Notes under the pieces: generated by a model
Database searches by the model: none
What the model was told of the DNA's origin: nothing
The model's input: the letters and a program-made list of their open reading frames with translations, nothing else
Program-made: the position numbers and the translations under genes
Part shown: positions 11,635-36,594 of the stretch, piece by piece
How the letters are laid out: every line of letters begins with the position of its first letter
Position numbering within the stretch: the stretch's first letter is position 1
Origin: a virus
Strand: one strand, 5' to 3'
Length of the DNA stretch: 39,893 bases
IMG/VR virus record: IMGVR_UViG_3300025298_000118
Span: 1-39,893 of that record

Positions 11635-11649
11635 TTCCCGGAGATCTAC

Positions 11650-15391: not shown

Positions 15392-15448
15392 CCAGCTTGG
15401 ACGGATAATCTGTACTGGCTCGGGAATGAGCGGCCTCTGACTGCTAGT

Positions 15449-15471
15449 TTAGAGGCGGCTACCGCCTCTAA
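15449..15471. terminator. Strong hairpin between converging genes
   Basis: TTAGAGGCGG and CCGCCTCTAA form a perfect 10-bp stem with a 3-nt loop. There is no long T-run on either side, so it is a possible bidirectional terminator or attenuator between the Mor-like gene and the reverse-strand DUF2971 gene. Confidence 0.5.
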
Positions 15472-15535
15472 CCAGACCTTCAACAATTGAATTCAGGGAC
15501 CACCGCATACGGTCCGCAGGAACGATAAGTGAAGC

Positions 15536-16477: not shown

Positions 16478-16669
16478 ATCTTTTCTTGGGGTTAGGTGGT
16501 CAAGACATTGTATGTCCGGTTCCACTACACTGAGTGGCCACTCCTGGCCGAAATAGACCCAAACGAACTCTATACCATCTGAAATCCATTGTCAGGTCTA
16601 GCTTGCACTACGGGAAACAATCCATTGTATCTCGCGTCTATCGGTAGCAGATCCGATTTGTAGGGCGTA

Positions 16670-16695
16670 GTCTCACTTCTCCCTAGAAATGAGAC
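16670..16695. repeat. 26-bp inverted repeat (GTCTCA...TGAGAC), copy 1
   Basis: Arms GTCTCA/TGAGAC and TTCT/AGAA are separated by one mismatch, with a CCCT centre. It is identical to 18560-18585 and differs at one base from 35101-35126. It lies 43 bp before the start of the gpW-like gene. Confidence 0.9.
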
Positions 16696-16738
16696 TTCGC
16701 CACCTGTAGTGTTGGGCGCTTCGAATAAGGAGCGTCCA

Positions 16739-16972
16739 ATGACCACACCAGCAGAAATGCTTTCCAAGTACCTTGAGGCCGAGCTGGCCGTCTTGGCCGG
16801 CAAGACGATCACCTTCCAGGGCCGATCCATGGGCATGGAGAACCTGAACGAGATCAGGGCAGGTCGGCGCGAATGGGAGGGACGCGTAGCTCAGGTGCTG
16901 CGCGGCGCTAGTGGGCAGCCGACAATCGGTGGCATGTCGTTCTCGGTCGCCAGTTTCGCGGAGCCCCTGTAA
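16739..16972 (+). CDS. gpW-like head-tail joining protein (DUF6148)
   Basis: A 77-aa protein with the gpW/DUF6148 pattern: 'MLSKYLEAELAVLAGKTITFQGRSMGMENLNEIRAGRREWEGRV'. In lambda, gpW is needed late in head assembly to close the head-tail interface. The ATG at 16739 follows AAGGAG (16727-16732); an in-frame start 30 nt upstream lacks a ribosome binding site. The stop overlaps the portal start (TAATG). It is the first gene after the DUF2971 insertion. Confidence 0.85.
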   Translation: MTTPAEMLSKYLEAELAVLAGKTITFQGRSMGMENLNEIRAGRREWEGRVAQVLRGASGQPTIGGMSFSVASFAEPL

Positions 16973-18498
16973 TGAGCGGCAAGGCCAAAGTGCAGCTCAA
17001 CGCCATGGATCGCGCCATCGCCTATCTGTGGCCGGCGGCAGGACTGCGCCGCCTGGCAGCGCGCAGCGTCCTGAGCCAGTATGAAGCGGCCAAACCATCG
17101 CGTCTGCGGAAAGGCGCGCGCGATGGGCGTTCACCTGATGCACAGGTCCAGCAGGGCGCCGTCGCCCTTCGTGGTCTGGCTCGAAACCTGGAACAGAATC
17201 ACGACATCGCACGCGGCGCTCTTCGCACGTTGGTGAACAATGTGGTTGGCCCGAGCGGCATCGGCATCGAGCCTCAACCCCGCCGAAAGGATGGCTCGAT
17301 CCACAATGAATACGCGGCGGCGCTGCGCACCGCCTACCGCGATTGGCAGCAGAATCCAGAAGTCACCCAGCGGCATCACTGGAGTAAGGTGCAGCGCCTG
17401 GTAGCGAAGACCTGGTTGCGGGACGGCGAGTGTTTCGCGCAGCGCTTGATGGGCGCCGTGCCGCTGCTGGACCATGCAACCAAGGTTCCTTATTCGCTCG
17501 AACTCATTGAACCTGACCTGATTCCTCTGGATCATCACGACCTGGCCAAAGGAATCCAACAGGGGATCGAGCGCAATACCTGGGGCAAGCCGACGGGATA
17601 TTGGGCATACAAGGAGTTCCCTGGCGGTGAAACGTGGACAAAGCGCAGCTACGAGCTCAAGCGCATCGATGCCGGCCGGATCCACCATATTGCGACGGTC
17701 GATCGCATTGGACAGATGCGCGGGGTCTCCGAATTCGCAAGTGTGATCACGCGACTGGAAGACATCAAGGACTACGAGGAGTCCGAGCGCATCGCGGCCA
17801 AGGTGGCAGCGTCCTTGACCGCCTACGTCAAAAAGGGTTCTCCGGACGACTACGCGCGTGGCCCCGACGATACCGGCACTGCACCACGAGAATTGCGCCT
17901 GTCTCCAGGCATGATCATCGATAACCTCGGCATTGGCGAAGAGATTGGCATGATCGATTCCAACCGGCCGAATCCCAACCTGGTCACGTTCCGGCAGGGG
18001 CAGCTGCGCGCCGTCGCAGCCGGCTTGGGCGGCAGCTACTCCAGCATCTCGCGTGACTACAGCGGCACCTACTCGTCCCAGCGGCAGGAACTGGTGGAGC
18101 AGTGGATCCACTATGCGGTCCTCTGCGACGAATTCGTGGGCCAATTCGTGCAGCCGGTCTGGAATGATTTTGTGCTGGCTGCCAGCCTGTCGGGCGTCGT
18201 GCCAATGCCGCGCGACGTGGATCCAGACAGCGCGAACGATGCACTGTTCGTCGGCCAGTCCATGCCATGGATCGATCCGCTGAAAGAAGCTCTTGCCTGG
18301 CACTCCTTGGTTGAGGATGGCTTCGCCAGCGAAGTCGAAGTCATGCGCAAGCGTGGTGTCAACCCGCGTGACGTGCTGGAGCAGGTCAAGGCGCACCGCG
18401 ACGAGTGCCGCGCCAAGGGACTGGTCTTTGCCTCCGACTTTGCGAACAAGGACAAAACTGCGCCGGCGGTTCCACCGCCAGATCCCAAAGAAGAATAG
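16972..18498 (+). CDS. Portal protein (lambda gpB family)
   Basis: A 508-aa portal subunit that forms the ring at the packaging vertex. It has typical lambda-type portal segments: 'HDIARGALRTLVNNVVGPSGIGIEPQP' (residues ~74-102), 'WLRDGECFAQRL' (~148-159), 'GVSEFASVITRLEDIKDYEESERIAAKVAA' (~247-276) and 'GGSYSSISRDYSGTYSSQRQELVE' (~352-375). Length is normal for the family. It is coupled to the gpW-like gene and followed by a strong terminator. Confidence 0.95.
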   Translation: MSGKAKVQLNAMDRAIAYLWPAAGLRRLAARSVLSQYEAAKPSRLRKGARDGRSPDAQVQQGAVALRGLARNLEQNHDIARGALRTLVNNVVGPSGIGIEPQPRRKDGSIHNEYAAALRTAYRDWQQNPEVTQRHHWSKVQRLVAKTWLRDGECFAQRLMGAVPLLDHATKVPYSLELIEPDLIPLDHHDLAKGIQQGIERNTWGKPTGYWAYKEFPGGETWTKRSYELKRIDAGRIHHIATVDRIGQMRGVSEFASVITRLEDIKDYEESERIAAKVAASLTAYVKKGSPDDYARGPDDTGTAPRELRLSPGMIIDNLGIGEEIGMIDSNRPNPNLVTFRQGQLRAVAAGLGGSYSSISRDYSGTYSSQRQELVEQWIHYAVLCDEFVGQFVQPVWNDFVLAASLSGVVPMPRDVDPDSANDALFVGQSMPWIDPLKEALAWHSLVEDGFASEVEVMRKRGVNPRDVLEQVKAHRDECRAKGLVFASDFANKDKTAPAVPPPDPKEE

Positions 18499-18515
18499 CC
18501 ACACCCTGCATTCAC

Positions 18516-18545
18516 CAGGCCGCCTTCGGGCGGCCTGTTCTTTTT
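18516..18545 (+). terminator. Rho-independent terminator after the portal gene
   Basis: CAGGCCGCC-TTCG-GGCGGCCTG followed by TTCTTTTTC: a 9-bp stem with a stable tetraloop and a T-run. The capsid gene beyond it probably needs its own promoter, or readthrough by an antiterminated polymerase. Confidence 0.92.
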
Positions 18546-18559
18546 CGCGCGCAAAAACT

Positions 18560-18585
18560 GTCTCACTTCTCCCTAGAAATGAGAC
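18560..18585. repeat. 26-bp inverted repeat, copy 2
   Basis: Identical to 16670-16695. It lies just after the portal terminator and 56 bp before the protease/capsid start, where a promoter for the capsid block would be expected. Confidence 0.9.
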
Positions 18586-18641
18586 GGCCGAAAAAACAAA
18601 CTGATGACTTCAAATGAACTGCAATCAATAAGGAACGGACG

Positions 18642-20678
18642 ATGCCAACTGCAAACCAGAACCAGCCAGCGAAGTGGTACACCATTCGCGCCAAGTCGGG
18701 TGTGAACGCCGCAGGCGTCGCGCAGGCGTCCGCAGCGGAAATTCTGATTTACGGCGACATCGGCGAAAGCTGGTACGGCGACACGGTCACGGCAGCCAAC
18801 TTCGTTCGCGACATCGCCGCGCTCGACGTTGAACAGCTGACGGTACGCATCAACAGCTACGGCGGCTCCGTCACCGATGGCATTGCTATTCACAATGCGC
18901 TTAAACGTCATAAGGCCACCGTGACCACGGTGGTGGACGGCATTGCCGCCTCGATCTCCAGCCTGATCGCGATGGCGGGTGACACCGTCGAGATGGCGGA
19001 GAACGCGCAGTTGATGATCCACGCGCCGTGGGGCTGGAACTCCGGCAACAGCGCCGCAATGCGTGAATACGCCGACATGCTCGACAGCTGGGCCGACGCC
19101 ATGTCTACTACCTACGCATCCAAGTCCGGCACCGACAAGACGGCAATGCTGGCCTTGCTGACGGACGGCAAAGACCACTGGTACACCGCAGAGCAGGCGC
19201 TGGAAGCGCACTTCATCGACGTGATCGTCGCAGGCTTGCCAATTGCGGCCAGCGCACAGCTGAAGGAATCCCTCAAGGCGCGGTACGCATCGTTCCCGCA
19301 GCCGACTACCCCGGCGGCATCTGCCGCGCCTCAACCACCATCGAAGGAGAGCAATACCATGCCACAACCAAACGCGACCGCCAACGACGACGCCATCAAG
19401 GCAGCGGCCAAGGCTGCACTGGAGGCTGACAAGGCGCGCCGTGCCAGCATTGCCGCTGCATTCAAAAATTTCGCCAGCGTCGGCGGCGTGCCAGCGCTGC
19501 TGGCCACCTGTGTCGACGACCAGGACTGCACCGTGGCGCAAGCGCACGAAAAGCTGCTGGCTCACATGGGCAACGGCGCCGTGCCAGTCGCGGGCAATAT
19601 CGTAACTATGGAAGATGAGCGTGACAGGTTCCGCGCAGGCGCCCTGGCATCGATCATGGCGCGTGGCAGCCTGGCCAAGGACGACACCGCGAACAACTAT
19701 CGTGGTTTTTCGCTGATGGACCTGGCGCGCGAATGCCTGGCGCATGCCGGCGTCAACGCGAAAGGCTTGGGCAAGATGGACGTCGTGGCGGCAGCATTCA
19801 CGCATTCCAGCTCGGACTTCCCATTGCTGCTGGCGAACGTCGCCACCAAGTCGATGATGAAGGGCTACGAAGAAGCCGACGAAACCTTCCAGCTGTGGAC
19901 CTCCGAAGGCACCCTGGGCGACTTCAAACCAGGCAAGCGGGTGGACCTGAATACCTTCCCGTCGCTGGACAAGATCCAGGACGGCGGCGAGTACAAGTAT
20001 GCGACGGTTGGTGAACGTGGAGAGACCGTGCAGCTGGCCACCTACGGCAAGATGTTCAGCCTGAACCGCCAGACCATCATCAACGATGACCTCGACGCCT
20101 TTACCAAGATCCCGCGCCGCATGGGCCGCGCAGCGATTCGCACCATCGGTGACCTGGTGTACGCAATCCTGACCGGCAACCCGGCGATGTCCGACGGCAA
20201 GACGCTGTTCCACGACGATCATAAGAACAAGATTGCCGCTGGCGCCATCAACACGCAGACGGTCGATGCCATGCGCGTACTCATGGCCAAGCAAACCGAT
20301 GGTACGGCCAGCGCGCTGAACATCCGCCTGGCCAAGCTGCTGGTGCCAGTGGCACTGGAAGGCACCGCCAAGGTCGTGATGGAGAGCGAGTACGAAGTCG
20401 GCGCCGGTGCGAAGAACAACACGGTGCCGAACTCGGTGCGCGGCACCTTCGAGGTGATCAGTGATGCACGCCTCGATCTCACCTCGGCGACTGAGTGGTA
20501 CGGTGCCGCGAACCAGAGCGTCCACGACACCGTCGAAGTGCAATACCTGGACGGCAATAAGACGCCAACCCTGGAGCAGCAGGATGGCTGGTCCCGCGAT
20601 GGCGTCGAGTTCAAGGTGCGTATGGACGCTGCCGCCAAGGCACTGGACTTCCGCGCTCTGGCAAAGAACGGCGCTTAA
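18642..20678 (+). CDS. Prohead protease / major capsid protein fusion
   Basis: A 678-aa fusion. Residues 1-~215 are a ClpP-like (S14) prohead protease with the nucleophile S104 in GIAASISS and H127 in MIHAPWG. The linker and scaffold-like helical part is ~225-310. The rest (~320-678) is a major capsid protein. Such fusions are known; the protease matures the shell and is then lost. An internal ATG at 19359 (M240) lies in frame behind a strong AAGGAG (19344-19349), so a separate scaffold-capsid product of ~439 aa is likely, as in lambda C/Nu3. That would give many free capsid subunits per protease. A hairpin follows the stop. Confidence 0.93.
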   Translation: MPTANQNQPAKWYTIRAKSGVNAAGVAQASAAEILIYGDIGESWYGDTVTAANFVRDIAALDVEQLTVRINSYGGSVTDGIAIHNALKRHKATVTTVVDGIAASISSLIAMAGDTVEMAENAQLMIHAPWGWNSGNSAAMREYADMLDSWADAMSTTYASKSGTDKTAMLALLTDGKDHWYTAEQALEAHFIDVIVAGLPIAASAQLKESLKARYASFPQPTTPAASAAPQPPSKESNTMPQPNATANDDAIKAAAKAALEADKARRASIAAAFKNFASVGGVPALLATCVDDQDCTVAQAHEKLLAHMGNGAVPVAGNIVTMEDERDRFRAGALASIMARGSLAKDDTANNYRGFSLMDLARECLAHAGVNAKGLGKMDVVAAAFTHSSSDFPLLLANVATKSMMKGYEEADETFQLWTSEGTLGDFKPGKRVDLNTFPSLDKIQDGGEYKYATVGERGETVQLATYGKMFSLNRQTIINDDLDAFTKIPRRMGRAAIRTIGDLVYAILTGNPAMSDGKTLFHDDHKNKIAAGAINTQTVDAMRVLMAKQTDGTASALNIRLAKLLVPVALEGTAKVVMESEYEVGAGAKNNTVPNSVRGTFEVISDARLDLTSATEWYGAANQSVHDTVEVQYLDGNKTPTLEQQDGWSRDGVEFKVRMDAAAKALDFRALAKNGA

Positions 20679-20689
20679 CCATTAATCCG

Positions 20690-20709
20690 GGCGGCGCGGT
20701 CGCGCCGCC
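20690..20709 (+). terminator. GC-rich hairpin after the capsid gene
   Basis: GGCGGCGCG-GT-CGCGCCGCC can form a very stable stem without a T-run. It is more likely an RNA-stabilising or attenuating hairpin than a full terminator. Confidence 0.5.
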
Positions 20710-20733
20710 GCTCAAATCGACAAGGAGCCTTGA

Positions 20734-21063
20734 ATGGCAAAGAACTATGTAGGCGAGGGCGAAGTCCTCGACTTCACCAATGCCGGCGCCGCAATCGCTG
20801 CCGGTTCCGTGGTGGCAATGGGCAAACGCATCGGCATTGCCCTGACTGATATCCCGACCAACAGCATCGGCGCGGTCGCAGTGACCGGCGTGTACACCAT
20901 TGCGAAGCTGACCACTGATGACGTTTCCCAGGGTGAACTGCTGTACTGGGATCCGGCTAACAACCGCCTGACCGAAACACCCGGCGCCTTGAACCTGGCT
21001 GGTTTCGCAGTAGCTCCAGCTGGAGCCGGCGTCGCCACCGTCCGCATCAAGATTAACGCCTAA
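20734..21063 (+). CDS. Capsid decoration protein (DUF2190)
   Basis: A 109-aa Ala/Gly-rich beta protein of the DUF2190 family, found directly after capsid genes and thought to cement the shell. Recognisable segments are 'AAIAAGSVVAMGKRIGIAL', 'SIGAVAVTGVYTIAK' and 'GELLYWDPANNRLT'. ATG at 20734 follows AAGGAG (20722-20727). Its abundance should match that of the capsid protein. Confidence 0.87.
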   Translation: MAKNYVGEGEVLDFTNAGAAIAAGSVVAMGKRIGIALTDIPTNSIGAVAVTGVYTIAKLTTDDVSQGELLYWDPANNRLTETPGALNLAGFAVAPAGAGVATVRIKINA

Positions 21064-21065
21064 CC

Positions 21066-21365
21066 ATGTTCGACCAGCTCGAAGTTCGTCTTAACAAGCT
21101 GGCGATGGAGCGCCTGGCAAATGCCAGCGCTCTCATTGCTGGCGACGAAGTGCCCGTCATCTTTGATGCCGAGTACAGGGAAGGCATGGTCGGGGTGGGG
21201 ATGGGCGCGGCGGCGCCGCAAATGGTTATCAGCAACGACCGCATGCCGGCGGACTTTATCGAGTCGCGCATCACCATCCGTGGCGTGACCTGGAAGGTTG
21301 CCGACGCCCAGCCCGACAGTGAGCTGCCGACCGGCTTGAGCATGGTCTACCTGGAGAAAGCATGA
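21066..21365 (+). CDS. Head-tail joining protein (gpFII-like)
   Basis: A 99-aa protein in the gpFII position, 3 nt after the decoration gene. The pattern 'GDEVPVIFDAEYREGMVGVGMGAAAPQMVISNDRMP...ESRITIRGVTWKVADAQPD' is the typical beta-rich fold of lambda FII-type head-completion proteins, which form the docking site for the tail. Its stop overlaps the next start (ATGA). Confidence 0.82.
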   Translation: MFDQLEVRLNKLAMERLANASALIAGDEVPVIFDAEYREGMVGVGMGAAAPQMVISNDRMPADFIESRITIRGVTWKVADAQPDSELPTGLSMVYLEKA

Positions 21366-21811
21366 CGACCCAGCATCTGGCCATCGCGCAGGCGATTGCA
21401 GAGCGATTCAAGGCGGCGCCGGACATTGCCGGCGACCGAATCTACTTGAACCGTTCGCGGGCCCTGAGCAGTGACAAGACCAGCGCTGTGGTGGTGCGCG
21501 TGTCGCGCAGCGCCTCCAAAGAATCCAGCCAAATCGGTGGCCGCACCAGCTGGAGCACGTTGATCGAGATCGAATGCCTGGGGCGCGATGGTGCTGACGA
21601 TGTACCGGGATCGCGCGCTGACCAGGTGCTGGAGCTTGTTTTCGACAACCTCGACGGCACCGTCGATCTCGGTTACGGCGTCATGAGCATTGAGCCCCTG
21701 GACGGCAGCACGCTCGACTGGGACTTCGATCAACTTGATTCAAGCGTCGCCTGTGTCACCGCGCGCTTTGTAGTGAAACATCAAACCAACGGGAGAACCC
21801 TGAAATTATGA
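21362..21811 (+). CDS. Tail terminator (gpU-like)
   Basis: A 149-aa protein in the gpU position. An N-terminal helix (AIAQAIAERFKAAP) is followed by a beta sheet ('SAVVVRVSRS', 'STLIEIECLGR') and a second helix ('SRADQVLELVFDNLDG'), the usual tail-terminator fold that caps the tail tube at the head end. The C-terminal 'DWDFDQLDSSVACVTARFVVKHQT' fits the same family. It overlaps both neighbours as ATGA. Confidence 0.8.
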   Translation: MTTQHLAIAQAIAERFKAAPDIAGDRIYLNRSRALSSDKTSAVVVRVSRSASKESSQIGGRTSWSTLIEIECLGRDGADDVPGSRADQVLELVFDNLDGTVDLGYGVMSIEPLDGSTLDWDFDQLDSSVACVTARFVVKHQTNGRTLKL

Positions 21812-22008
21812 ACGTGATTGACTCGTTCGACGAATCCGGCGACGACGCGCTGGAACGCGCCGGCTCCGGCATTGTGCAGACGTCTGCACAAAACGCTGAC
21901 GAAGTGGTACACAAAGAACCTGCCCTGGGCGGTAGCTACATCCGCATCGTCGACACCGGCGACCTGGTTAAGCAGGAGTTGCCCGCTGAACCGAAAGAGG
22001 GGGAGTAA
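21808..22008 (+). CDS. Small acidic hypothetical protein (66 aa)
   Basis: A 66-aa acidic protein, joined to the upstream gene by an ATGA overlap and ending 2 bp before the tail tube gene. No family is recognised. Residues 22-28 (GIVQTSA) are encoded by the exact 16-bp palindrome at 21874-21889. The rest is acidic and probably disordered except 'GGSYIRIVDTGDLV'. Its tight packing argues it is translated. Confidence 0.6.
   Translation: MNVIDSFDESGDDALERAGSGIVQTSAQNADEVVHKEPALGGSYIRIVDTGDLVKQELPAEPKEGE
21874..21889. repeat. 16-bp palindrome GTGCAGACGTCTGCAC, copy 3
   Basis: Identical to the other copies; here the symmetry extends to 20 bp (TT...AA). It lies inside the 66-aa gene and is read as V-Q-T-S-A, the same frame as copy 1. 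Confidence 0.9.
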
Positions 22009-22010
22009 GC

Positions 22011-22988
22011 ATGCCTGAACGCCTTATCCGCAAGACCGTCATCCTGGCGAAGCTGGAAACGACCTACGGCACCGATCCGACGCCGTCTGGCGCTGCGAAT
22101 GCGCTGGTGGTCAGCAACGTGTCGATCAACGCGCTGAACGCTGAGTACATCAAGCGTGACATCATCCGTGAATACCTGGGCGCCTCCGAAGAGCTGCCAG
22201 GCGCAAGCTACGTCGAGTGCGGCTTCGACATTGAACTGGTCGGTGCGGGTGTTGCTGCCCAGGCGCCTGCCTGGGGCCCGCTGATGCGCGCGATCGGTTT
22301 TGCCGAGACCATTACCGCAGGCGTGCGCGTGGACTACACCCCCGTGTCGGGCAATTTCGAGTCCGTGACCATTTACTACTACGACGATGGCGTGCTGCAT
22401 AAGCTGCTGGGCGTCCGTGGCACGGCCACCCTGGATCTGACGGTGGGCCAGAAACCGACCATCAGCTTCAAGATGATCGGCGTTGATGGCGGTATCGCCG
22501 TGGCCGGGAACCCTGCCACGACGTTGACGGCCTGGCGCGTGCCGCAGATTGTCACCGACGACAACTCGGGCGACATCACCATCGGCGCCACCCATGCCGT
22601 GGCAACCGCGCCGGCTTTCGTCGGCGGCACGGCTTTCCCGAGCTTGGGCCTGACCATCGACCTGGGCATCAACGCGACATTTCAGAAGATCCTGGGTGGC
22701 AAGTCGGTCGCCATCACCGACCGCGAAGTCACCGGCGCGATCAAGCTGAAACAGACTGCAGCGGAAGAAGTCGCCTTCATGGGCGACGTTAAAGCGGCGG
22801 CAAAGAAGTCCATCGGGCTGATCCATGGCACCGTAGCCAACGACAAGGTGCTGGTCTATCTGCCAGCCGCGCAGTTCAAGGAACCGACCAAGGAGGAGCT
22901 GAATGGCGAGCGCCTGATCGGCTACAAGCTGCGCGCGCTCCCTGTTGCCGGCAACGACGAGTTCCGCATCGCCACCAGCTTCGCCTAA
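22011..22988 (+). CDS. Major tail tube protein
   Basis: A 325-aa tail tube subunit. N-terminal 'KTVILAKLETTYGTDPTPSGAANAL' and 'GAWGPLMRAIGFAETI'-like segments (APAWGPLMRAIGFAET) are typical of siphophage tube proteins. A beta-rich central domain follows ('VTIYYYDDGVLHKLLGVRGTATLDLTVGQ'). The C-terminal third (~240-325) may be an extra Ig-like or decoration domain. It polymerises around the tape measure to form the tail. A small hairpin (GGGCC/GGCCC, 22995-23008) follows the stop. Confidence 0.9.
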   Translation: MPERLIRKTVILAKLETTYGTDPTPSGAANALVVSNVSINALNAEYIKRDIIREYLGASEELPGASYVECGFDIELVGAGVAAQAPAWGPLMRAIGFAETITAGVRVDYTPVSGNFESVTIYYYDDGVLHKLLGVRGTATLDLTVGQKPTISFKMIGVDGGIAVAGNPATTLTAWRVPQIVTDDNSGDITIGATHAVATAPAFVGGTAFPSLGLTIDLGINATFQKILGGKSVAITDREVTGAIKLKQTAAEEVAFMGDVKAAAKKSIGLIHGTVANDKVLVYLPAAQFKEPTKEELNGERLIGYKLRALPVAGNDEFRIATSFA

Positions 22989-23027
22989 TAACCAGGGCCT
23001 GCGGGCCCAACCTTTGAAAGCAAAAAA

Positions 23028-23378
23028 ATGAACAAACGTTTTGTCTCCGTTATCAGTCCGACCGTTGTCGTCCCTGTCAAAGGCACCCTCAAGGATGCCG
23101 GCGGCGCCGCTGTGCCGTTCAAGTTCAGCCTGATCTGCCGCCGCATGCTTGCGAGCGAACTGAAGAACCGCATCAACAGTGGCGACTTCGATATGAAGGA
23201 AATTGCCAAGGAAGTCACTACCGGCTGGCAGGGCCAGCGCCTGATCAACGACCAGGAAACCGGTGAGCCGGCCGAGTTCTGCGCGGAAGCGTTCGACGCG
23301 CTGCTGGACATCAGTGGCATGGCCCTGGTGTGCTTCAACGCATTCACCAAAGAGTCGAGCGCTGCGGAAAAAAACTAG
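23028..23378 (+). CDS. Tail assembly chaperone, short form (gpG-like)
   Basis: A 116-aa protein directly after the tube gene and before the tape measure, the position of lambda gpG. The core 'FKFSLICRRMLASELKNRINSGDFDMKEIAKEVTTGWQG' and 'FCAEAFDALLDISGMALVCFNAFTKES' are typical of the DUF-type tail chaperones that coat the tape measure before tube assembly. The gene ends in GAA-AAA-AAC-TAG, i.e. a canonical -1 slippery site touching the stop codon, so part of the ribosomes continue into the next frame. Confidence 0.88.
   Translation: MNKRFVSVISPTVVVPVKGTLKDAGGAAVPFKFSLICRRMLASELKNRINSGDFDMKEIAKEVTTGWQGQRLINDQETGEPAEFCAEAFDALLDISGMALVCFNAFTKESSAAEKN
23369..23375 (+). promoter_or_regulatory. 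Programmed -1 frameshift site A-AAA-AAC
   Basis: The heptamer AAAAAAC in the X-XXY-YYZ phase lies directly before the TAG stop (23376-23378) of the chaperone. A -1 slip leads into the 23375-23734 frame without a stop codon. Confidence 0.9.
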
Positions 23379-23734
23379 CCGCGGTCGCGCGCTGTGCCGC
23401 CCTCGGGCAACTGGCAAGTCCTGATGAGATAGAGCAGGACCAGGTGGAGGTAGATGAAGCCGCCGCCGCATTTGGGTTGGCGCCGGTGTTCGAGCGCGAC
23501 GAAACCGAGCCGATCTACCTCTGGCCGGAGAACGTCGCGTCATGGAACTTCTTCCAGGCGGTGTCAACGCAATGGGTCGTCGGGCCGGGCGGCGCCGTCG
23601 GCCTTCACTATCCGGCCGTCGCCATCGTGCGCGATGCGCAGGGTATTCGGCGTAAGGACTGGCCAAAGTTGTTTTCAGAGATTCAGGCAATGGAGCGCGC
23701 GACCTTACAGGCGTGGAGAGAACGTAAGAAATGA
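23375..23734 (+). CDS. Tail assembly chaperone extension (gpT-like, DUF1799)
   Basis: The part translated only after the -1 frameshift, giving a ~235-aa G-T fusion with the upstream chaperone. Residues show the DUF1799 pattern 'YLWPENVASWNFFQAVSTQWVVGPGGAVGLHYPAVAIV'. In lambda the gpGT fusion bridges the tape measure and the tail tube. A free start (TTG/ATG) with a good ribosome binding site is not seen in this frame, which supports frameshift-only expression. The stop overlaps the tape measure start (ATGA). Confidence 0.87.
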   Translation, partial: LAAVARCAALGQLASPDEIEQDQVEVDEAAAAFGLAPVFERDETEPIYLWPENVASWNFFQAVSTQWVVGPGGAVGLHYPAVAIVRDAQGIRRKDWPKLFSEIQAMERATLQAWRERKK

Positions 23735-27735: not shown

Positions 27736-29195
27736 TAAACGATGCACAATTTACCTCCTGGTTGCAGGATTCGGGGGCGCAGCGCGTGACGCTGTTCGAA
27801 GTCGGCGTCAAAAGTACCGGCGTCGATATGACTCGCTTCCTGTCCAACAAGATCTATATCGGATCGGCCAATACGCCATATCAGGCGGTGGTAGCTGGCG
27901 GGCTGAGGGTGACCGAGTCGATCTCGATGGACGCCTCTGCCAGCCTGTCCGCAGGCGACATCGAGATCTATAACGCCGACGGATCGCGCGATGCCTGGCT
28001 GGACGACATCTGGGTGAACCAGCCAGTCAACGCGTTCGTGGGCGACGTGCGCTGGGACAGGGCGGATTTTCGCCAGGTGTTTAGCGGCGTCATCGTCGAC
28101 ATCGCTTGCAAGTCGCGGGACCGCCTGAGCCTGCGCCTGGTAAACAAGCTGGAGCGCTTGAATACGCCGGTGACGGATTCGAAGATTGGGGGCAACGCTG
28201 CCAATCCCGATGCCCTGGTACCAGTGCTCTTGGGCGAGTGCCACAACATCAGCCCGGTACCGACAAATCCGGGCACATTGGAATATGCCTTCGGCAATGG
28301 TGCGAACGAGGCGGTTGCCGAAGTGCGGACGGAGGGTAAGCCGCGCGCAGCGGTGAGCGTGACGACCAGTACTGGCCGCCTGGTCTTTAACGAAGCGGTC
28401 GGCCCGGGCGCGGTCACATGCGATGCCCAGGGGGCGAAATTCAACGGCAGCTACGTCAATACGATCGGCCAGCTGGTGCAGTACCTGGTCACCCAGCGCG
28501 GCAAGGCGACGACCAGGTTCAGTGCGGCCGACCTGGATGCGGTCCAGCTTGCTGCCTTCGAGGCCGCCAATCCGCAGCCGGTCGGCCTGTACCTGGCCGA
28601 GCGCACCAACGTGCTGCTGGCATGCCAGCAGCTGGCCACCAGCGTCGGCGCCCAACTGGTACCGTCGATGACCGGCAAGCTGCGCCTGATCCAGTTCGCA
28701 ATCCCGGCGGTGGCCACGGCCGAGATCCGGCCATCGCAGCAGCTGGATCGCAGCATTACGATCGTCAAGCGCACGGAAGTTGTGGCGGCGATCAAGATTG
28801 GTTACTGCCGCAACTGGACGCCGCAAGGCAAGCTGCAAACGTCCTTGCCAGACGCGCACAAGGCGCTGTATGCGCAGGAATGGCTGTCGGTGACCGCTGT
28901 CGATGCCGGCGTGCTGGCCACGTACAAGCTCGATGCCGAGCCCGTCCAGATCGATACCTGCCTGCTGCGCAAGGTTGACGCGCAGGCTGAGGCGAATCGT
29001 CGCCTGGCGATCGCCAAGGTGCCGCGCACGACGTTCCGCTTCGAGGCGACGCCGGCGCAGCTGCTGCTCGAGCTGGGGCAGGCAGTAAAACTATTCAGCA
29101 ATCGCTTCGGCCTGGCCGCAGGCAAGGTTGGCTTGCTCACTTCGCGCACGGCCGACTGGGACACGCTTCGCTCCACGTTGGAGGTAACCATCTGA
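27732..29195 (+). CDS. Distal tail / hub-like protein
   Basis: A protein of ~487 aa directly after the tape measure. An in-frame CTG at 27732 behind AGGAGGG (27718-27724) is the best start (M-I-N-D-A-Q-F...); the first TTG in frame (27762) would lose 10 residues and has no good site. The CTG also overlaps the tape measure stop (CTGA), like the ATGA couplings elsewhere. Residues ~35-130 are a beta-rich domain ('TESISMDASASLSAGDIEIYNADGS'). Residues ~290-470 ('NVLLACQQLATSVGAQLVPSMTGKLRLIQF') fit the gp27/hub-like tail proteins that form the tip of the tube. The specific family is not certain. Confidence 0.8.
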   Translation: MINDAQFTSWLQDSGAQRVTLFEVGVKSTGVDMTRFLSNKIYIGSANTPYQAVVAGGLRVTESISMDASASLSAGDIEIYNADGSRDAWLDDIWVNQPVNAFVGDVRWDRADFRQVFSGVIVDIACKSRDRLSLRLVNKLERLNTPVTDSKIGGNAANPDALVPVLLGECHNISPVPTNPGTLEYAFGNGANEAVAEVRTEGKPRAAVSVTTSTGRLVFNEAVGPGAVTCDAQGAKFNGSYVNTIGQLVQYLVTQRGKATTRFSAADLDAVQLAAFEAANPQPVGLYLAERTNVLLACQQLATSVGAQLVPSMTGKLRLIQFAIPAVATAEIRPSQQLDRSITIVKRTEVVAAIKIGYCRNWTPQGKLQTSLPDAHKALYAQEWLSVTAVDAGVLATYKLDAEPVQIDTCLLRKVDAQAEANRRLAIAKVPRTTFRFEATPAQLLLELGQAVKLFSNRFGLAAGKVGLLTSRTADWDTLRSTLEVTI

Positions 29196-30739
29196 TGGCG
29201 ACATTCGTCAACGACCGTACGGTACTGATTCTGGCGGCGAATCCGCGCTACACGCCACCGAGCGACCGCGGCATGTTCCTGGCGCCTTCGGCCGCAGTGT
29301 TCAAGGTGGCAGCAGACGGCTTGAGTACCTCGCCCGCATCATTCACCTTCAAGGCCAATTTGCTGAACATGTCGGGCACCGTGGCATTTACCTGCAGCGC
29401 CGGAATCACGCCATCCGTGAACGGCAATGAGGTGACGGTCACGTACGCGAACTTCGCGGCCGTCTCCGGCACGATCACTGCAACGCTCACGGTCGACGGC
29501 GTGCAGTACACCCAAACGGCAACGCTGGCCAAGGTGGCGGACGGATCGAATGGCGCTGCCGGTGCGGCAGGTGCGCGGGGCAATGTCGACATCGCGGCAG
29601 TGACCACATCCAGCATCTGGTCGGACGGCGAGGCAAACGCAGCGCTGCAGGCGGCGGGCTACGGCGCAGCGCGGACGCGCGACATGGTCACCCTGTACAA
29701 GGCCGATCGCACCTTCAGCGTTCAAAAGATGTACAACGGCAGCGTGTGGGTGACCGTCGATTACGTCTATAACGGCAACATGTTCATCAAGGGATCGATC
29801 CTGCCGGAGGCCATCGATACACGCAATTTGACGGTCAAGGATGCGGCGGGCAATGTGATCCTGGGCGCCGGTACGAATCTCGATAAGTCACGCATCAACG
29901 CCAATTTCGGTTCAAACCTGATGTACAACGGCGACTTTAGTTGCGGCCTCGATGGGTGGAGTTTTGCTGCGTCAACTGGGCCTGCTGTCAACCAGATGGG
30001 GATCAATCTCAATGATGACTGGTGGCTGTCGTTGGCGCAGAACCAGCCGGGCGCCAAAGTATTTTGGGCAAGCCAGACCGACGGCTATCGCAATAGCTCG
30101 ATCAATGATGCAACGCACTACTTCGACTTCTGCAGCCTCAAAGTGCCGGTCGAGGCAGGGAAGAACTACATCGTCAGCGCGATTACTGGCGCGCATCGTT
30201 GTGCTGTGAATGTCTTCATGTATTTCTACAACAGCGCCGATCAGTTACTTGGCGCCTCAACGGGGGCAGGGAACACGTCGGGTGCCTGGGCAAATGCAAA
30301 CGAATATAGCGGAGGGAAGGCGCTGGCCGGTTACAAGCGCATATACAGTCCAGGCGTTGCCCCTGCTGGAGCTGCGTATTGCCGGGTGATACTGCGGAAG
30401 TTCGCAACGGTGACAGGGTGGAATGACTCTTACATGTTCGTGGGCCGGGTAATGATCGAAGAAGCATCTGCAGGCGTTACAACGCCTGGCATATGGTCGA
30501 TAGGGCAGTCGGTTGCGCCAATCACACCAGGGAACGTCTCGACCTATATCGCGGGCGCTGCAATCGGCCTTGCGCAGATCAATACGGCGAGCATTGGAAG
30601 TCTCTCCGCGCTGAGCGCCACGATTGGAACGTTGCGCACCGCAACGTGGGGCGGGCGCATGGAAATCGAGAACAACCAGCAGCGGATCTACGACGAGGGT
30701 AATAACCTGGTTGTTCAAATCGGTCGCCTGGATCCGTAG
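29195..30739 (+). CDS. Tail tip / fibre protein
   Basis: A 514-aa tail protein. Residues ~60-105 are an Ig-like or bacterial cadherin-like beta domain ('VAFTCSAGITPSVNGNEVTVTYANF'). A short collagen-like repeat follows (~122-132, SNGAAGAAGARG). Then comes a carbohydrate-binding-like domain (~240-420, 'NLMYNGDFSCGLDGWSF' is the usual opening of CBM_4_9-type modules). The C-terminus has the DUF1983-like stalk ('LAQINTASIGSLSALSATIGTLRT'). It would be displayed at the tail tip and bind the cell surface. There is no classical gpJ in this phage, so this protein and the next ones share that role. Confidence 0.82.
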   Translation: MATFVNDRTVLILAANPRYTPPSDRGMFLAPSAAVFKVAADGLSTSPASFTFKANLLNMSGTVAFTCSAGITPSVNGNEVTVTYANFAAVSGTITATLTVDGVQYTQTATLAKVADGSNGAAGAAGARGNVDIAAVTTSSIWSDGEANAALQAAGYGAARTRDMVTLYKADRTFSVQKMYNGSVWVTVDYVYNGNMFIKGSILPEAIDTRNLTVKDAAGNVILGAGTNLDKSRINANFGSNLMYNGDFSCGLDGWSFAASTGPAVNQMGINLNDDWWLSLAQNQPGAKVFWASQTDGYRNSSINDATHYFDFCSLKVPVEAGKNYIVSAITGAHRCAVNVFMYFYNSADQLLGASTGAGNTSGAWANANEYSGGKALAGYKRIYSPGVAPAGAAYCRVILRKFATVTGWNDSYMFVGRVMIEEASAGVTTPGIWSIGQSVAPITPGNVSTYIAGAAIGLAQINTASIGSLSALSATIGTLRTATWGGRMEIENNQQRIYDEGNNLVVQIGRLDP

Positions 30740-30750
30740 GAACCCAATTT

Positions 30751-31047
30751 ATGACATACGGAATCAAGACGGTCAGGAACGGCAAAAGCGTCCTCAGCCC
30801 TGACGGTGAGGGTGGCGTGTTTATTGAGCTGGTGACGTTCGGAACGACGTACATGCGGCGCACGTTCACAGACCTGGGAACGCTGAATATCTTCTACTTC
30901 GTGCCTGGCGGCGGGTACCACGAGATCGTCGTGGGGCGGGATGTCAATGGAAATCCCTTCATTGAAGCGCAAGGCTATCCAATGCCCGCTTGGGGCAGTT
31001 GGCCCGCTGGGTCATTCGATACTGTCGTGGGGGTGTTTGCGCGATGA
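30751..31047 (+). CDS. Small tail-associated protein (98 aa)
   Basis: A 98-aa beta-rich protein between two tail genes. No family is recognised. Segments 'GGVFIELVTFGTTYMRRTFTDLG' and 'GGGYHEIVVGRDVNGNPFIEAQG' suggest a small beta-sandwich that could cap a fibre. Its stop overlaps the next start (ATGA at 31044), so it is cotranslated with the 255-aa protein. Confidence 0.65.
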   Translation: MTYGIKTVRNGKSVLSPDGEGGVFIELVTFGTTYMRRTFTDLGTLNIFYFVPGGGYHEIVVGRDVNGNPFIEAQGYPMPAWGSWPAGSFDTVVGVFAR

Positions 31048-31811
31048 GCGACTTTGGAGTCCGATTCAACACGGCCGCTGGTTACCGCCAGATCGACACT
31101 AAGCACATTGTCCCTCAGCTAATCGGGCGCTTTGACATGGCGAATTATTCCTATGTCGATGTGACCGAAGAACTGGGCGCTCAACCAGGCTGGATTATGC
31201 GCTTGTACGATTTCCAAGCGCCTGCATCGATTTTGTCCCGGAAGTACATGATGTTTCACTCGATCCCTTCGGGTGGACAAGAGGTCTATTCCGATGGGTT
31301 CAAAGTGATGTACAAGCACGGTGCATCATTCTCGGCGCCAGTGCTGTACTTTTTTGCACTGGACTTCGTGACGAAGTCCGGCGCCTCCTGGGGCATCAGG
31401 GTCATGCGGCCGGACGGGAGCGTGACCTATGACAGCGGGAACGGGCACCTCAATCTTTCGTATATCTACAGCGGCCGCAGTGTGAACGTCGACCACGATG
31501 ATACTGCTCACGCAAGCATGGGGATCGTCACCAGTATCGGCGCACCGGCTAAAGGGATGCCATCGGCGCCAGCAATCTGTCCGCCATTCTTTACAAGGGT
31601 TACCTCCTTTGGCCGCAGGCTTCAAGGTACCGGCGAAGACACTTGCAGCTTGTTCTATCGCTCGTATGGGGGATCCCTGCAAGCGGTGATGCTGCGAACC
31701 GAGTATCGGTACACCAATGATGAAGTGCCAGACAATAGTTTCAGCAATTTCTACGTGTCGAAAGCGACTAACTTAACGATTTTTCTGATTGATCGTTCGA
31801 TTTACGACTGA
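31044..31811 (+). CDS. Hypothetical tail protein (255 aa)
   Basis: A 255-aa protein with mixed beta composition and no clear signature. The start at ATG 31044 was chosen over an upstream in-frame start because it overlaps the previous stop as ATGA. Aromatic and glycine-rich segments ('SDGFKVMYKHGASFSAPVLYFFALDF', 'SCSLFYRSYGGSLQ'-like) are typical of fibre-tip proteins. By position it belongs to the adhesion complex. Confidence 0.62.
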   Translation: MSDFGVRFNTAAGYRQIDTKHIVPQLIGRFDMANYSYVDVTEELGAQPGWIMRLYDFQAPASILSRKYMMFHSIPSGGQEVYSDGFKVMYKHGASFSAPVLYFFALDFVTKSGASWGIRVMRPDGSVTYDSGNGHLNLSYIYSGRSVNVDHDDTAHASMGIVTSIGAPAKGMPSAPAICPPFFTRVTSFGRRLQGTGEDTCSLFYRSYGGSLQAVMLRTEYRYTNDEVPDNSFSNFYVSKATNLTIFLIDRSIYD

Positions 31812-31820
31812 AAGGGGCAA

Positions 31821-32480
31821 ATGCCAGTTCTCAAGGAAATTCAGGCGCCAAACGGCGTCAGCGTCACGTATCACATTTTGAGCAACGCCAGCATCGACAT
31901 GCAGCTTGGCACAATCAGGCTGTATGTCCGCAGCTATCCGAATGAAGAAGCATCCTTGCAAGGCAAGCCGCATGCCTGCGCGTTCAACGATCTGTCGTTT
32001 CCATTGAGCGCAATCGCACTGACCGAAGACGGTCTGGTCACCGCGCTTGAACGTGCACTGATCGGCCAGGATGGCGATGCCAGTGCGAACCTGTTTCGTG
32101 GGGGCGTCCTGGTCGAAGACCGTAACGGTACGCTGCAGGTGGCGAAGGATCGGGCGTGGTCAGCGATCAAAGCCGCGCGCGCTGTTGCCGAGCAGGGCAA
32201 TTTCATTTACGACGACGGCAGCTATCAGGCCGACATTATGCGCATTAATGGCGCCGTCCAGCTGGCCACGCTCGCAAAGTCCAGTGGCGCCGCATACAGC
32301 GAAACCTGGACGCTGACGGACAATACGACGCGACAGCTTAACGCTGACCAGGTGATCGGGTTGGGTATTGCGCTCGGACAGTACGTGTCAAGCCAGTACG
32401 CTACTGGCCGCGCGCTGCGCGTGGCGATCAACGAGGCTGCGACGATTGAAGCGGTGAACGCGATCAGGTGGCCAGCATGA
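31821..32480 (+). CDS. Tail fibre assembly-like protein (DUF4376)
   Basis: A 219-aa protein. The C-terminal region (~105-217, 'AKDRAWSAIKAARAVAEQGNFIYDDGSYQADIMRINGAVQLA...WTLTDNTTRQLNADQVIGLGIALGQYVSSQY') is a DUF4376 domain, common in fibre and tail-assembly proteins. The N-terminal ~90 residues are beta-rich. The ATG at 31821 follows AAAGGGG. The stop overlaps the next start (ATGA at 32477). Confidence 0.8.
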   Translation: MPVLKEIQAPNGVSVTYHILSNASIDMQLGTIRLYVRSYPNEEASLQGKPHACAFNDLSFPLSAIALTEDGLVTALERALIGQDGDASANLFRGGVLVEDRNGTLQVAKDRAWSAIKAARAVAEQGNFIYDDGSYQADIMRINGAVQLATLAKSSGAAYSETWTLTDNTTRQLNADQVIGLGIALGQYVSSQYATGRALRVAINEAATIEAVNAIRWPA

Positions 32481-34543
32481 GCAATATGCGAATCGTTTAC
32501 GACAATGCGGTGAGCCGGGCTGCGCTGGTGGCGTCGAGCACCGACGGAGCGCTGGTGGCTGGGAATCTTCAGATTGACGACAAATCGAGTGTATGGCGCG
32601 CGACTGGCACGACCGCCAGGCTCTCCGCGTCTTGGGCTGCAGGCGAGTCTATCGCTGCCGTAGCGCTGCCGTTTTGCAATCTGTCGCCCGCCGCCACGAT
32701 GCGTGTCCGCTTATCGAATGAGAGCGGCGCCACCAATCTGCTGGGCCACCCATCCAACATGGACCGGTCGCCGTGGCAAAGTGGGAATACCGCGATTGTC
32801 CAGAATGCGGCGCAGGCGCCTGACGGGACGTTGACGGCGGACGCGATGATGCGTATCGCCCCTGGCAATCACTACCTGTTCCAGAACTTGGCGACGCCGG
32901 CTGCTGGCAATCCGTTCACCGGCTCTGTCTGGCTAAAGACCGGATCGTATACCGGCGGCGTCAGGGTGTGGCTGAAAGATGGTGCTGGCGTGACGCTCGT
33001 CTCCAAACTTGTGCAGCCTACTGCGGATTGGACGCGCTTCTCGTGCAGTGGGACGTTCCCGGCTAATGCCACGGGCAATGTGGCCTTCTTTATTGATCCG
33101 GCGGACGATGCCGGCGTAGCAGGCGAGCAGTTTTACCTATGGGGTGCCCAGGTTGAGGCGGGCCTGGCCGCCACGTCGTTGGCGCCGGATGCCACGGCGT
33201 TTACCTCGCGGGCATCGGCCAAATGGGTGTTTGACGCAGCTGGCGTGCTTAACCAGGTCGCTGCCAACGTTGCCACCAACGACTTTGATCCCTCGATGTC
33301 CGTTAGCAAAGGCCTGTCGCTGGAAGCGGCGGCAACGAACACGATTCGCAATAACACCATGGTCGGCGCGGTTGCCGGCACACCAGGGACGAATCCGACG
33401 AACTGGGGTTTGTCGACCGCTTCCGGGTTGACGGTCACGGTGGTGGGTACTGGTGTGGAGGCAGGCATCGACTACATCGACTATCGCCTTTTTGGTACGC
33501 CGTCATCCGGTTCGAGCGGGATTCGGTTTGAGCAATCGAACAGTGTGGCTGCCGCGTCCGGTCAATCGTGGGTCGCGTCAGTGATCGTTCGAAGGGTTGC
33601 TGGTTCCGAGGTCAATATCACGTCTGTCAGGGCAAACTTCTTTGGCCTTGCCTCGGGCGGCGCTGGGACAGTGGACAGCATGGTGGGCGTAAACCTGGTA
33701 GGAGGGCTAGGCGGCGCAAGCCTTGCGACTGTACGCGCGGTGGCCACCGGAACTCTAACGGATGTGGCCACGGCATACGTGCGGCCGCAGCTTTTGATTG
33801 GCCACACTGCCGGGTCGCCGATCGACATCACGTTGCGTATTGGCCTGCCGCAGCTGGAGCAGGGGCGGGCTGCATCGTCGCCCATTAAAACGAGCGGCGC
33901 CGCAGTGACGCGTGCGGCCGATCTTTCGGTCAGTCCGCCTGGCGTTCGGCCGGCCGGATACATCGATTCCTGGCAGAGCTATGACTACGATAGCGGCGTT
34001 GTGCCCGCCTGCCCGGCGCCGGCAGTCAAGCTGCGCGGCTGGACTGCCGCCCAGGCGGCAAGCGCGTATGCTTATGGCGGCGGGGCATACGCCAGGCATT
34101 GGCTGCAATCGGCAGTCCAAGCGCTCGGCCTGGCCGTCGACATTGCAGATCCAGGCAACCTGCAGGGCTACGTTGAGGCAGCCTGCCTGGTGGCCGGCCC
34201 TTACTGGTCGCCCGAGTACAACGCGTCGAAAGCGACTTTCACCAACGTGGACACGACAGAGTTTTACCGGACTGGTGCGGGTGGGCAAGGCGCCGATGCT
34301 GGATACACGTACCGCACCTTGCCAATCGACCTGGAGCACATGCCTGCAGCCGACCGCGCGGCGTTTGTGAACATCATCCGTAACAGTCGGGCCTATCCGG
34401 TTTTGATCAGCGTGTTCCCTGGTTGGGACGACTTGGCGCTCGAGCGCGACAACATGATTTACGGCCGGCGCAGCAAAGACTCCAACGTCGCCATCCAATA
34501 TGCGCTGGCCTATTCCACCACTATCGAAGTCGAGGAGATTTAA
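32477..34543 (+). CDS. Tail fibre with two carbohydrate-binding-like modules
   Basis: A protein of 688 aa. The first module (~95-245, 'NLLGHPSNMDRSPWQ...FTGSVWLKTGSYTGGVRVWLKDGAG...FYLWGAQVEAG') and the second (~295-480, 'NTIRNNTMVGAVAGTPGTNPTNWGLST...RIGLPQLEQGRAASSPIKT') have the opening and closing strands of CBM-like jelly rolls found in phage spikes. The C-terminal ~190 residues form a separate domain ('KLRGWTAAQAASAYAYGGGAYARHWLQSAVQ'). It probably binds surface sugars of the host. The start at ATG 32477 was preferred over GTG 32468 because of the ATGA overlap with the upstream stop. Confidence 0.8.
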   Translation: MSNMRIVYDNAVSRAALVASSTDGALVAGNLQIDDKSSVWRATGTTARLSASWAAGESIAAVALPFCNLSPAATMRVRLSNESGATNLLGHPSNMDRSPWQSGNTAIVQNAAQAPDGTLTADAMMRIAPGNHYLFQNLATPAAGNPFTGSVWLKTGSYTGGVRVWLKDGAGVTLVSKLVQPTADWTRFSCSGTFPANATGNVAFFIDPADDAGVAGEQFYLWGAQVEAGLAATSLAPDATAFTSRASAKWVFDAAGVLNQVAANVATNDFDPSMSVSKGLSLEAAATNTIRNNTMVGAVAGTPGTNPTNWGLSTASGLTVTVVGTGVEAGIDYIDYRLFGTPSSGSSGIRFEQSNSVAAASGQSWVASVIVRRVAGSEVNITSVRANFFGLASGGAGTVDSMVGVNLVGGLGGASLATVRAVATGTLTDVATAYVRPQLLIGHTAGSPIDITLRIGLPQLEQGRAASSPIKTSGAAVTRAADLSVSPPGVRPAGYIDSWQSYDYDSGVVPACPAPAVKLRGWTAAQAASAYAYGGGAYARHWLQSAVQALGLAVDIADPGNLQGYVEAACLVAGPYWSPEYNASKATFTNVDTTEFYRTGAGGQGADAGYTYRTLPIDLEHMPAADRAAFVNIIRNSRAYPVLISVFPGWDDLALERDNMIYGRRSKDSNVAIQYALAYSTTIEVEEI

Positions 34544-35043
34544 TGCAATACGCAACAGCAAGCACGAACCGTGGCGGTTACCTGACTGTGCGTGTCACCA
34601 GCCGGTGGCCTTACAACCCGATCAGCCTGGCTGTGGGCGTGCTGTCAGGCTCTCACCAGTTCAGCCATGCGATCACGATCATTGGTAACCGAGCGTACGA
34701 GGCCTCGATGGCGCACGGCTGTCGCGCCGGCACGCTTGCCGAACTGATGGCCGGCATCGTTGTCTATCGCGACATGGAGGTATGGGTGCCGGACTTCGCC
34801 GCCGCCGTGCAGTTTGCGGAGAACCAGGTGGGGAAGGGCTATGACTGGGCTGGCGCCGTTGGCCTGCCTCTGACCTATTCGGAAGACTGGGCAGACGAAG
34901 GGCGCTGGTGGTGTTCGGAGCTGGCGTTTGCCATCGTGCTGGCTGGTGGTACGCGCTTGTTCGATCCGGCAGTGATGACGCGTGTGCGACCCGTCGACCT
35001 CTTGATGTGCGACTACCCGAAATCCTCCCTGTTCTACGTTTGA
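34543..35043 (+). CDS. Permuted papain-like (NlpC/P60-type) peptidase
   Basis: A 166-aa protein from the ATG at 34543, which overlaps the previous stop (TAATG). It has the circularly permuted NlpC/P60 or YiiX layout: 'FSHAITIIG' with H42, 'YEASMAHGC' with E53, and the nucleophile C124 in 'WWCSELAFAIVLAGG'. Such enzymes cut amide or peptidoglycan peptide bonds. At the end of the tail module it could help the tail penetrate the cell wall, the role lambda gpK plays. Catalytic assignment is by pattern only. Confidence 0.78.
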   Translation: MQYATASTNRGGYLTVRVTSRWPYNPISLAVGVLSGSHQFSHAITIIGNRAYEASMAHGCRAGTLAELMAGIVVYRDMEVWVPDFAAAVQFAENQVGKGYDWAGAVGLPLTYSEDWADEGRWWCSELAFAIVLAGGTRLFDPAVMTRVRPVDLLMCDYPKSSLFYV

Positions 35044-35100
35044 CCGTTCCTCGCTGGGCCTTCGCTTCGGAGCGTAGAAGGCTCGGCGTTCGCTGAAATA

Positions 35101-35126
35101 GTCTCAATTCTCCCTAGAAATGAGAC
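35101..35126. repeat. 26-bp inverted repeat, copy 3
   Basis: Differs from copies 1 and 2 at one position (GTCTCAA instead of GTCTCAC). It lies 62 bp before the holin start, i.e. before the lysis block. Confidence 0.9.
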
Positions 35127-35188
35127 GGTGAGAACGAGACACTGTGCGCTCCCGGTGATCTAATTCCTCCTGCCGGAGACTACTGACT

Positions 35189-35605
35189 ATGAAAGAACAA
35201 TCAATGAGCGAACCGATTTCAGGCACGGCCGCCGGTGTAGCGGGCTGGAAGATCATCGGCGGCCTAGCGGGCATGGGCGCGATTGGCGCCGGCCTCGCTG
35301 CCTTCGTTGTGATGGCAATGACCAAACCCAAATCCGACCAGGAGTGGCGCGTCGCCCTGGTCAGCACGCTCGTGGGCTCGATTGGCGGCGGTGCCGCGCT
35401 GGTGCGCTACCTGGGCATCCAGCACTGGGCGCAAGATCCGATTGGTATTGTCGCCATGTTGTTCCTGTCGTTTGCCTGTGGACTGCCAGCGTGGGCGCTG
35501 GTTCGCGCATTGTTCCTCTATATCGATAAGCGCCGCGATGCCGACTTGGCCGAGCTCGCTCATGACGCTGTCAACGTCGTCAAAGATGTGCGAGGTGCCC
35601 TCTGA
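35189..35605 (+). CDS. Holin-like membrane protein
   Basis: A 138-aa protein with three hydrophobic segments (~20-44 'AGWKIIGGLAGMGAIGAGLAAFVV', ~57-74 'LVSTLVGSIGGGAALVRY', ~84-110 'IGIVAMLFLSFACGLPAWALVRALFLY'), followed by a charged C-terminal tail (DKRRDADLAELAHD). That is the usual holin architecture. It sits immediately before the endolysin, its stop overlapping the next start. The ATG at 35189 follows GGAG; a second in-frame ATG at 35204 could produce a shorter form, as in dual-start holins. Confidence 0.82.
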   Translation: MKEQSMSEPISGTAAGVAGWKIIGGLAGMGAIGAGLAAFVVMAMTKPKSDQEWRVALVSTLVGSIGGGAALVRYLGIQHWAQDPIGIVAMLFLSFACGLPAWALVRALFLYIDKRRDADLAELAHDAVNVVKDVRGAL

Positions 35606-36072
35606 TGTCGCCTACCGAATTCATTGAACTGCTGCTGCCCGCCGCGCAGGCCTGCCACCGCGATACCGGTATTCCGGCCAGCTTTACCCTGGCCCAGGCT
35701 GCGCTGGAATCGAGCTGGGGCGCCCGCGCGCCTGGCTTCAATCTCTTCGGCGTCAAGCCTGGACCGGTCTGGAAAGGCGCGACGGTCTTGGTCGATACCC
35801 ACGAGTTCATCAAAGGGGTGCGCACGCCGACCAAGTGCGCCTTCCGTGCGTATTCCAGTTGGCTGCACTGCATGCAGGACCATGCCGACTTCTTCCGACA
35901 GAACCCCCGCTACCGGAAATGCTTCATTGAGCAGACAGGGGAGGGCTGGGCCCGTGCCGCTGCCGCCGCTGGCTACGCGACGGACCCGGCGTATGCCGAC
36001 AAGCTGATCGCCATCATGCGCGGCCGTAACCTGGTTCGCTACGATGCGTTGCCTTCCAAGGTGCCCGCATGA
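35605..36072 (+). CDS. Endolysin, glucosaminidase (FlgJ-like)
   Basis: A 155-aa glycosidase of the N-acetylglucosaminidase/FlgJ type that would cut the peptidoglycan sugar backbone. The catalytic Glu is E35 in 'QAALESSWG'. Other family motifs are 'NLFGVKPG', 'FRAYSSWLHCMQDHADFF' and 'GYATDPAYADKLIAIM'. There is no signal peptide, so release depends on the holin. The start overlaps the holin stop (TGATG) and the stop overlaps the Rz-like start. Confidence 0.92.
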   Translation: MSPTEFIELLLPAAQACHRDTGIPASFTLAQAALESSWGARAPGFNLFGVKPGPVWKGATVLVDTHEFIKGVRTPTKCAFRAYSSWLHCMQDHADFFRQNPRYRKCFIEQTGEGWARAAAAAGYATDPAYADKLIAIMRGRNLVRYDALPSKVPA

Positions 36073-36593: not shown

Positions 36594-36594
36594 A

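Follow-up and report, generated by a model that had tools for sequence, protein, structure and literature searches.

The 39,893-nucleotide stretch of viral DNA analysed here (hereafter the window) carries a 26-bp inverted repeat, or dyad, three times, always on the + strand. The first two copies read GTCTCACTTCTCCCTAGAAATGAGAC, and the third deviates at position 7 alone, where it has A. The genes and features at these loci are as follows.

15110-15388, + strand: gene for a Mor-family activator (93 aa); its start overlaps the stop of the terminase large subunit (TAATG)
16670-16695, + strand: dyad copy 1, candidate activator site 5' of gpW/portal; kept 5' of gpW in relatives
16739-16969, + strand: gpW-like head-tail adaptor, opening block 1 (phrog_118)
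16972-18495, + strand: portal, second in block 1 (phrog_21)
18516-18545, + strand: intrinsic terminator closing block 1, by consensus, CAGGCCGCCTTCGGGCGGCCTG-TTCTTTTT from 18516
18560-18585, + strand: dyad copy 2, candidate activator site 5' of ClpP-capsid; kept 5' of capsid in relatives
18642-20675, + strand: fusion of head-maturation protease and major capsid protein (ClpP-capsid), opening block 2 (phrog_133)
35101-35126, + strand: dyad copy 3, candidate activator site 5' of the lysis block; its counterpart in contig L123 lies 5' of lysis genes
35189-36069, + strand: lysis block, a small phrog_1024 protein and then endolysin (35605-36069), by PHROGs match

The first-pass annotation had described three near-identical repeats, 43-62 bp upstream of the genes that open late blocks, with a terminator before the second. 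All of this holds: the positions are exact, a single base differs, and 100 dinucleotide shuffles of the window produced 0 copies. No further copy at ≤3 mismatches occurs within the window. From dyad end to start codon we measured 43 bp for gpW (ATG 16739), 56 bp for ClpP-capsid (ATG 18642) and 62 bp for the small pre-endolysin protein (ATG 35189), and the terminator, real by consensus, ends ~15 bp ahead of copy 2. The names gpW, portal, protease/capsid and endolysin also stood, whereas 'holin' did not, the protein matching only phrog_1024, which has no function assigned. NCBIfam gave no name for this protein or for the Mor-like protein, and megablast of window positions 12000-21000 against phage records returned no match. 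A DUF2971 gene (15536-16525, minus strand) lies reversed between mor and dyad copy 1 and looks like cargo inserted between activator gene and promoter.

The window holds other repeats. A second palindrome, TGTGCAGACGTCTGCACA, occurs with close variants at 5300-5317, 11618-11635, 21873-21890 and 36594-36611 (4 copies, 0.01 expected), and is possibly the site of a ParB-like protein (2680-4737) or of a repressor; in L013 and L022 a diverged copy of this type lies after the third dyad. A 30-nt inverted repeat (5680-5709 / 6463-6492, 83% complementary) stands either side of the CI-like repressor gene, and its halves are likely repressor operators. The 607-aa frame at 38070-39893 (minus strand), which runs to the window end, has no match in Pfam, PHROGs or NCBIfam.

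The product of the gene at 15110 is a member of the Mor family, scoring 37.3 bits with the Pfam Mor model (PF08765; cut-off 24.9). PHROGs assigns it to phrog_532, late transcriptional activator, and profile searches match it to the solved structures of Mu Mor (1rr7) and C (9l0x), and also to 9vw8. A predicted model (pLDDT 82.6) has Mor/C as its best PDB matches at a probability of 0.97-0.99, but with E ~0.02 and TM 0.38. We found no second Mor/C family member in the window, and tblastn of the protein in named phages gave a single weak match, to an uncultured phage.

We evaluated the association between site and mor by searching in both directions. The exact dyad pattern matched 13 stretches of IMG/VR contigs, and a looser one gave three matches, at two loci, in a Massilia sp. 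IC2-278 prophage. The 5.8-Mb genome of this strain contains exactly three sites, all within one 20-kb stretch, and its sole Mor match adjoins one of them. Sites at ≤3 mismatches were present in 6 of 393 host-family genomes. Four other matches to the loose pattern (L019-L021, L023) were rejected as chance, having no loop and no phasing. The sequence GTCGCACATTTTTGTAGAAATGCGAC is present in four contigs. Among site-seeded contigs with good coverage the majority have a Mor homologue, some of them very distant.

Starting from the Mor-like protein, we retrieved 18 loci and, in a further search, 43. To these we applied a de novo detector that knew only to look for two similar dyads after mor; it recovered a dyad pair, one member before gpW and one before capsid, in most loci of sufficient length, while 66 of 1260 random windows of the same loci passed the dyad test. 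Where a relative was retrieved by its close Mor-like protein and was long enough to be judged, the site was almost always present, and in many relatives mor lies directly upstream of the counterpart of copy 1. Across 52 mor-bearing capsid relatives, ~39 have a clear pre-capsid dyad, 12 have none by the detector and 1 gave a spurious match; several of those lacking a clear dyad retain a recognisable right half. Six relatives without a Mor match, each with at least 4 kb of upstream sequence, showed no credible element there, mostly terminator-like hairpins. The lambdoid relatives JBD68, yong2 and Flotzy (12-14 kb read in each) have neither mor nor the element, their best element scores being ≤-18 as compared with 54-56 in the window.

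These data bear on the possibility that the promoter is real but is bound by some other phage or host regulator, such as a CI-like repressor, a CII-like activator or a host factor, with Mor uninvolved. CI-like and CII-like proteins are indeed encoded in the window, and a few site-bearing records lack a detectable Mor, namely the 66-kb L123 contig and, within the part that was read, one prophage of G332; the contigs are environmental fragments, so that absence of a gene from one of them is weak evidence. We consider such a regulator quite improbable, given that site and Mor go together in phages that have diverged widely, whichever of the two the search began with, that the sites adjoin late genes only and that the arms fit the Mor recognition helix, as described below. 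In the L123 contig the dyad promoter (1356) precedes a lysis cassette. A second region of G332 (L190, 14134) has a promoter identical to it; no Mor was detectable beside this copy, and a mor prophage is present elsewhere in G332. The lysis genes may have been borrowed as a module, or a prophage may rely on the activator of another phage. A further locus, L208 in genome G382, has a Mor match with an internal TGA and one close site only, and is probably a decaying prophage.

The anatomy of the element was defined from 89 sites in relatives (41 distinct 26-mers; 83 distinct sites), collected with a pattern that demanded TAGA[AT]A and left A+13 and T+17 free. The consensus is approximately GTCYCnnnTnTnnnTAGAAAnnRGAC, 11 bp, NAnnnT. 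Past the dyad, every site (89/89; 83/83 distinct) has A at +13 and T at +17; the next-best offset reaches 15/83. TAGAAA lies inside the right arm in 83/83 distinct sites, bar one A, although the search pattern partly required it; it is likewise present in the dyad pairs detected de novo, where the hexamer was not demanded. TAGAAA agrees with TTGACA at 4/6 positions and stands 17 bp from NAnnnT, the sigma-70 spacing. With a near-invariant TAGAAA and NAnnnT 17 bp on, the element has the layout of a weak sigma-70 promoter, which in the window would comprise the following.

16684-16689, + strand: -35-like TAGAAA in copy 1, near-invariant in 83 distinct sites
16707-16712, + strand: -10-like TAGTGT of late promoter 1, by the A+13/T+17 rule; predicted start near 16719
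18574-18579, + strand: -35-like TAGAAA in copy 2, near-invariant across distinct sites
18597-18602, + strand: -10-like CAAACT of late promoter 2, by the A+13/T+17 rule; predicted start near 18609
35115-35120, + strand: -35-like TAGAAA in copy 3, near-invariant across distinct sites
35138-35143, + strand: -10-like GACACT of late promoter 3, by the A+13/T+17 rule; predicted start near 35150

With +1 set 7 nt past the -10-like hexamer, the dyad centre would fall at ~-36.5 and the arms at ~-47 and ~-26. A generic promoter scan did not list the three core promoters, which match the consensus weakly; poor core promoters would be expected if an activator is needed. Some relatives carry a 27-bp form, in which the arms are 1 base wider and the distance from right arm to -10 is unchanged, and more remote relatives have TGTAAA or TAAAAA in place of TAGAAA. 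One pre-gpW dyad (L201 1787, on the contig of L252) has TGCCAA for TAGAAA with arms and -10 retained, a natural -35 variant.

The fixed phasing to the -10 is also relevant to a reading of the dyads as bidirectional terminators or insulators. On the minus strand, copy 2 (18585-18560) reads as a hairpin with TTTTT after it and was scored terminator-like. The T run is missing at copies 1 and 3, however, and the A-rich stretch that supplies it ahead of copy 2 fits equally well as an UP element, which it may be. Since neither the phasing nor the asymmetric conservation of the dyad is explained by termination, we give this reading a negligible probability.

The first-pass annotation had left open whether the repeats bind a late activator or form RNA hairpins, and had proposed that relatives be aligned to see whether pairing or sequence is kept. 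That alignment indicates that the dyads are promoter parts and not RNA hairpins. The right arm is near-invariant across elements, while its left partners at positions 7, 8 and 10 drift. Of 36 distinct elements, 13 have lost pair 7/20 and 12 have lost pair 8/19, nearly always by a change on the left side, so that inner pairing is lost as right-arm sequence is held. A hairpin in the late mRNAs, processed by an enzyme such as RNase III or shielding mRNA ends, would draw support from the fold of the window 26-mer (-9.1 kcal/mol, z -3.3 to -4.4) and from the outer pairs 4/23, 5/22 and 6/21, which covary with compensatory changes. Two-arm changes do not keep the pairing along the whole stem, however, and compensation in the outer arms is equally predicted by a two-fold protein site. 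The fold weakens to -4.8 in relatives, and the fixed A+13/T+17 would go unexplained. In addition, copy 2 follows a terminator, so that it should be rare in mRNA from upstream, and the predicted starts lie 3' of each dyad, so that the new transcripts would exclude it. Taken together, this evidence makes an RNA role very improbable.

We compared the arms of the dyads with the Mor-like proteins of the same phages. The arms vary by lineage (GTCTCA, GTCCCA, GTCTCC, GTCCAC, GTCGCA, GTCCGG, GTCCAG, GTCTAC). Within a phage, copies 1 and 2 share 5.49 of 6 specificity positions, against 3.23 in shuffles (maximum 4.05), a comparison that includes the effect of kinship. In the recognition helix, SRxQFY, Thr at x goes with C4/G23 in 5/5 cases and Ala or Gly with T4/A23 in 24/26, while Ser goes mostly with T/G at 4/23. 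Thr appears again with GTCC...GGAC in distant families (L254, L263, L266, L278, L200). Ala with C4 also exists, in the GTCCAG class (L264, L272) and in L102, and a single residue therefore does not alone set specificity. In a tree test of helix against arms the decisive independent pairs agreed in 4/4 cases (p = 0.125), short of significance because independent changes are few. The arms thus appear to track one recognition-helix residue at 4/23, in a number of cases too small for significance.

Together these data support, with a probability of about 0.9, a model where each dyad combines operator and promoter for a late activator of the Mor family. The fixed -10 phasing, the co-occurrence with mor, the concerted arm changes and the correspondence between arms and recognition helix favour the late-activator reading of the earlier annotation, and the same four observations point to the Mor-like protein as its candidate. 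Activation, start points and stoichiometry we infer from sequence comparison, and the most likely mechanism is as follows. The Mor-like protein would be produced from the final gene of the terminase operon and would bind both arms, two helical turns apart, as a dimer or two dimers straddling the -35-like hexamer. The deposited initiation-complex structures with Mu Mor and C (9l0y, 9l0x) list four activator chains, a lead that makes two dimers per promoter possible. Bound protein would then recruit or isomerise host sigma-70 RNA polymerase at the weak -35/-10, and three late transcripts would start, for gpW/portal, capsid-to-tail and lysis. At copy 2 transcription would restart right past the terminator, uncoupling capsid supply from portal supply. 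We further put at a little short of even odds a separate Mor-family mode of activation, in which a -35-like hexamer is retained between half-sites two turns apart, polymerase sits on the opposite face, and one helix residue tunes the arms to give each lineage a private late-promoter code.

If correct, sequence alone is enough to place and orient late promoters, and to name their probable activator, in a large group of lambda-like prophages, none of which we found characterised. The same protein-plus-site system is seen in dozens of related phages, and would represent a route to late expression without a single Q-type operon. The matched changes in helix and site form a natural series on DNA reading by Mor/C proteins, and such small phage-specific activator/promoter pairs could be useful as orthogonal switches.

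Activation of the Mor/C type is known; what is new here, as read from the elements, is a longer dyad that is nearer the start and retains a -35-like hexamer. At Mu Pm the Mor site spans 16 bp (two 5-bp repeats with a 6-bp spacer), has its centre at -43.5 and takes the place of the -35 (PMC4390567, PMC4287176). The window elements resemble Pm in their Mor-family HTH activator, in a dyad 5' of a weak -10, in the use of sigma-70 polymerase and in an A/T-rich stretch just upstream. They have the inverted repeat 5' of the -10 that marks a Mu-type promoter, but not its 16-bp, -43.5, no--35 geometry: the dyad is 26-27 bp with 11-bp arms, has its centre ~7 bp nearer the predicted start and contains a -35-like hexamer. 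The mode of protein-DNA contact is therefore not transferable from Mu. Unlike Mor at Pm, the window protein would serve the late genes of a lambda-like siphophage. In Mu the late promoters (lys, I, P, mom) are under the activator C (PMC4461284). As in that system, several late operons including lysis would answer to one Mor/C-family activator; Mu, however, uses a cascade of Mor and then C, whereas one family member was found in the window. The Mu late promoters also have a non-consensus -35 and variable C sites, whereas the window elements are near-identical.

At promoters activated by lambda CII, the half-sites lie on either side of a -35 hexamer with which polymerase remains in contact, and they are direct repeats one turn apart. 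The flanking of the -35 is shared, whereas in the window the repeats are inverted, their spacing is two turns and the protein is unrelated to CII. Lambdoid phages control their late genes by Q antitermination. The window has their head gene order (gpW, portal, ClpP-capsid), but unlike JBD68, yong2 and Flotzy, where terminase, gpW, portal and capsid genes abut or overlap, its gene train is split into blocks that would be separately promoted.
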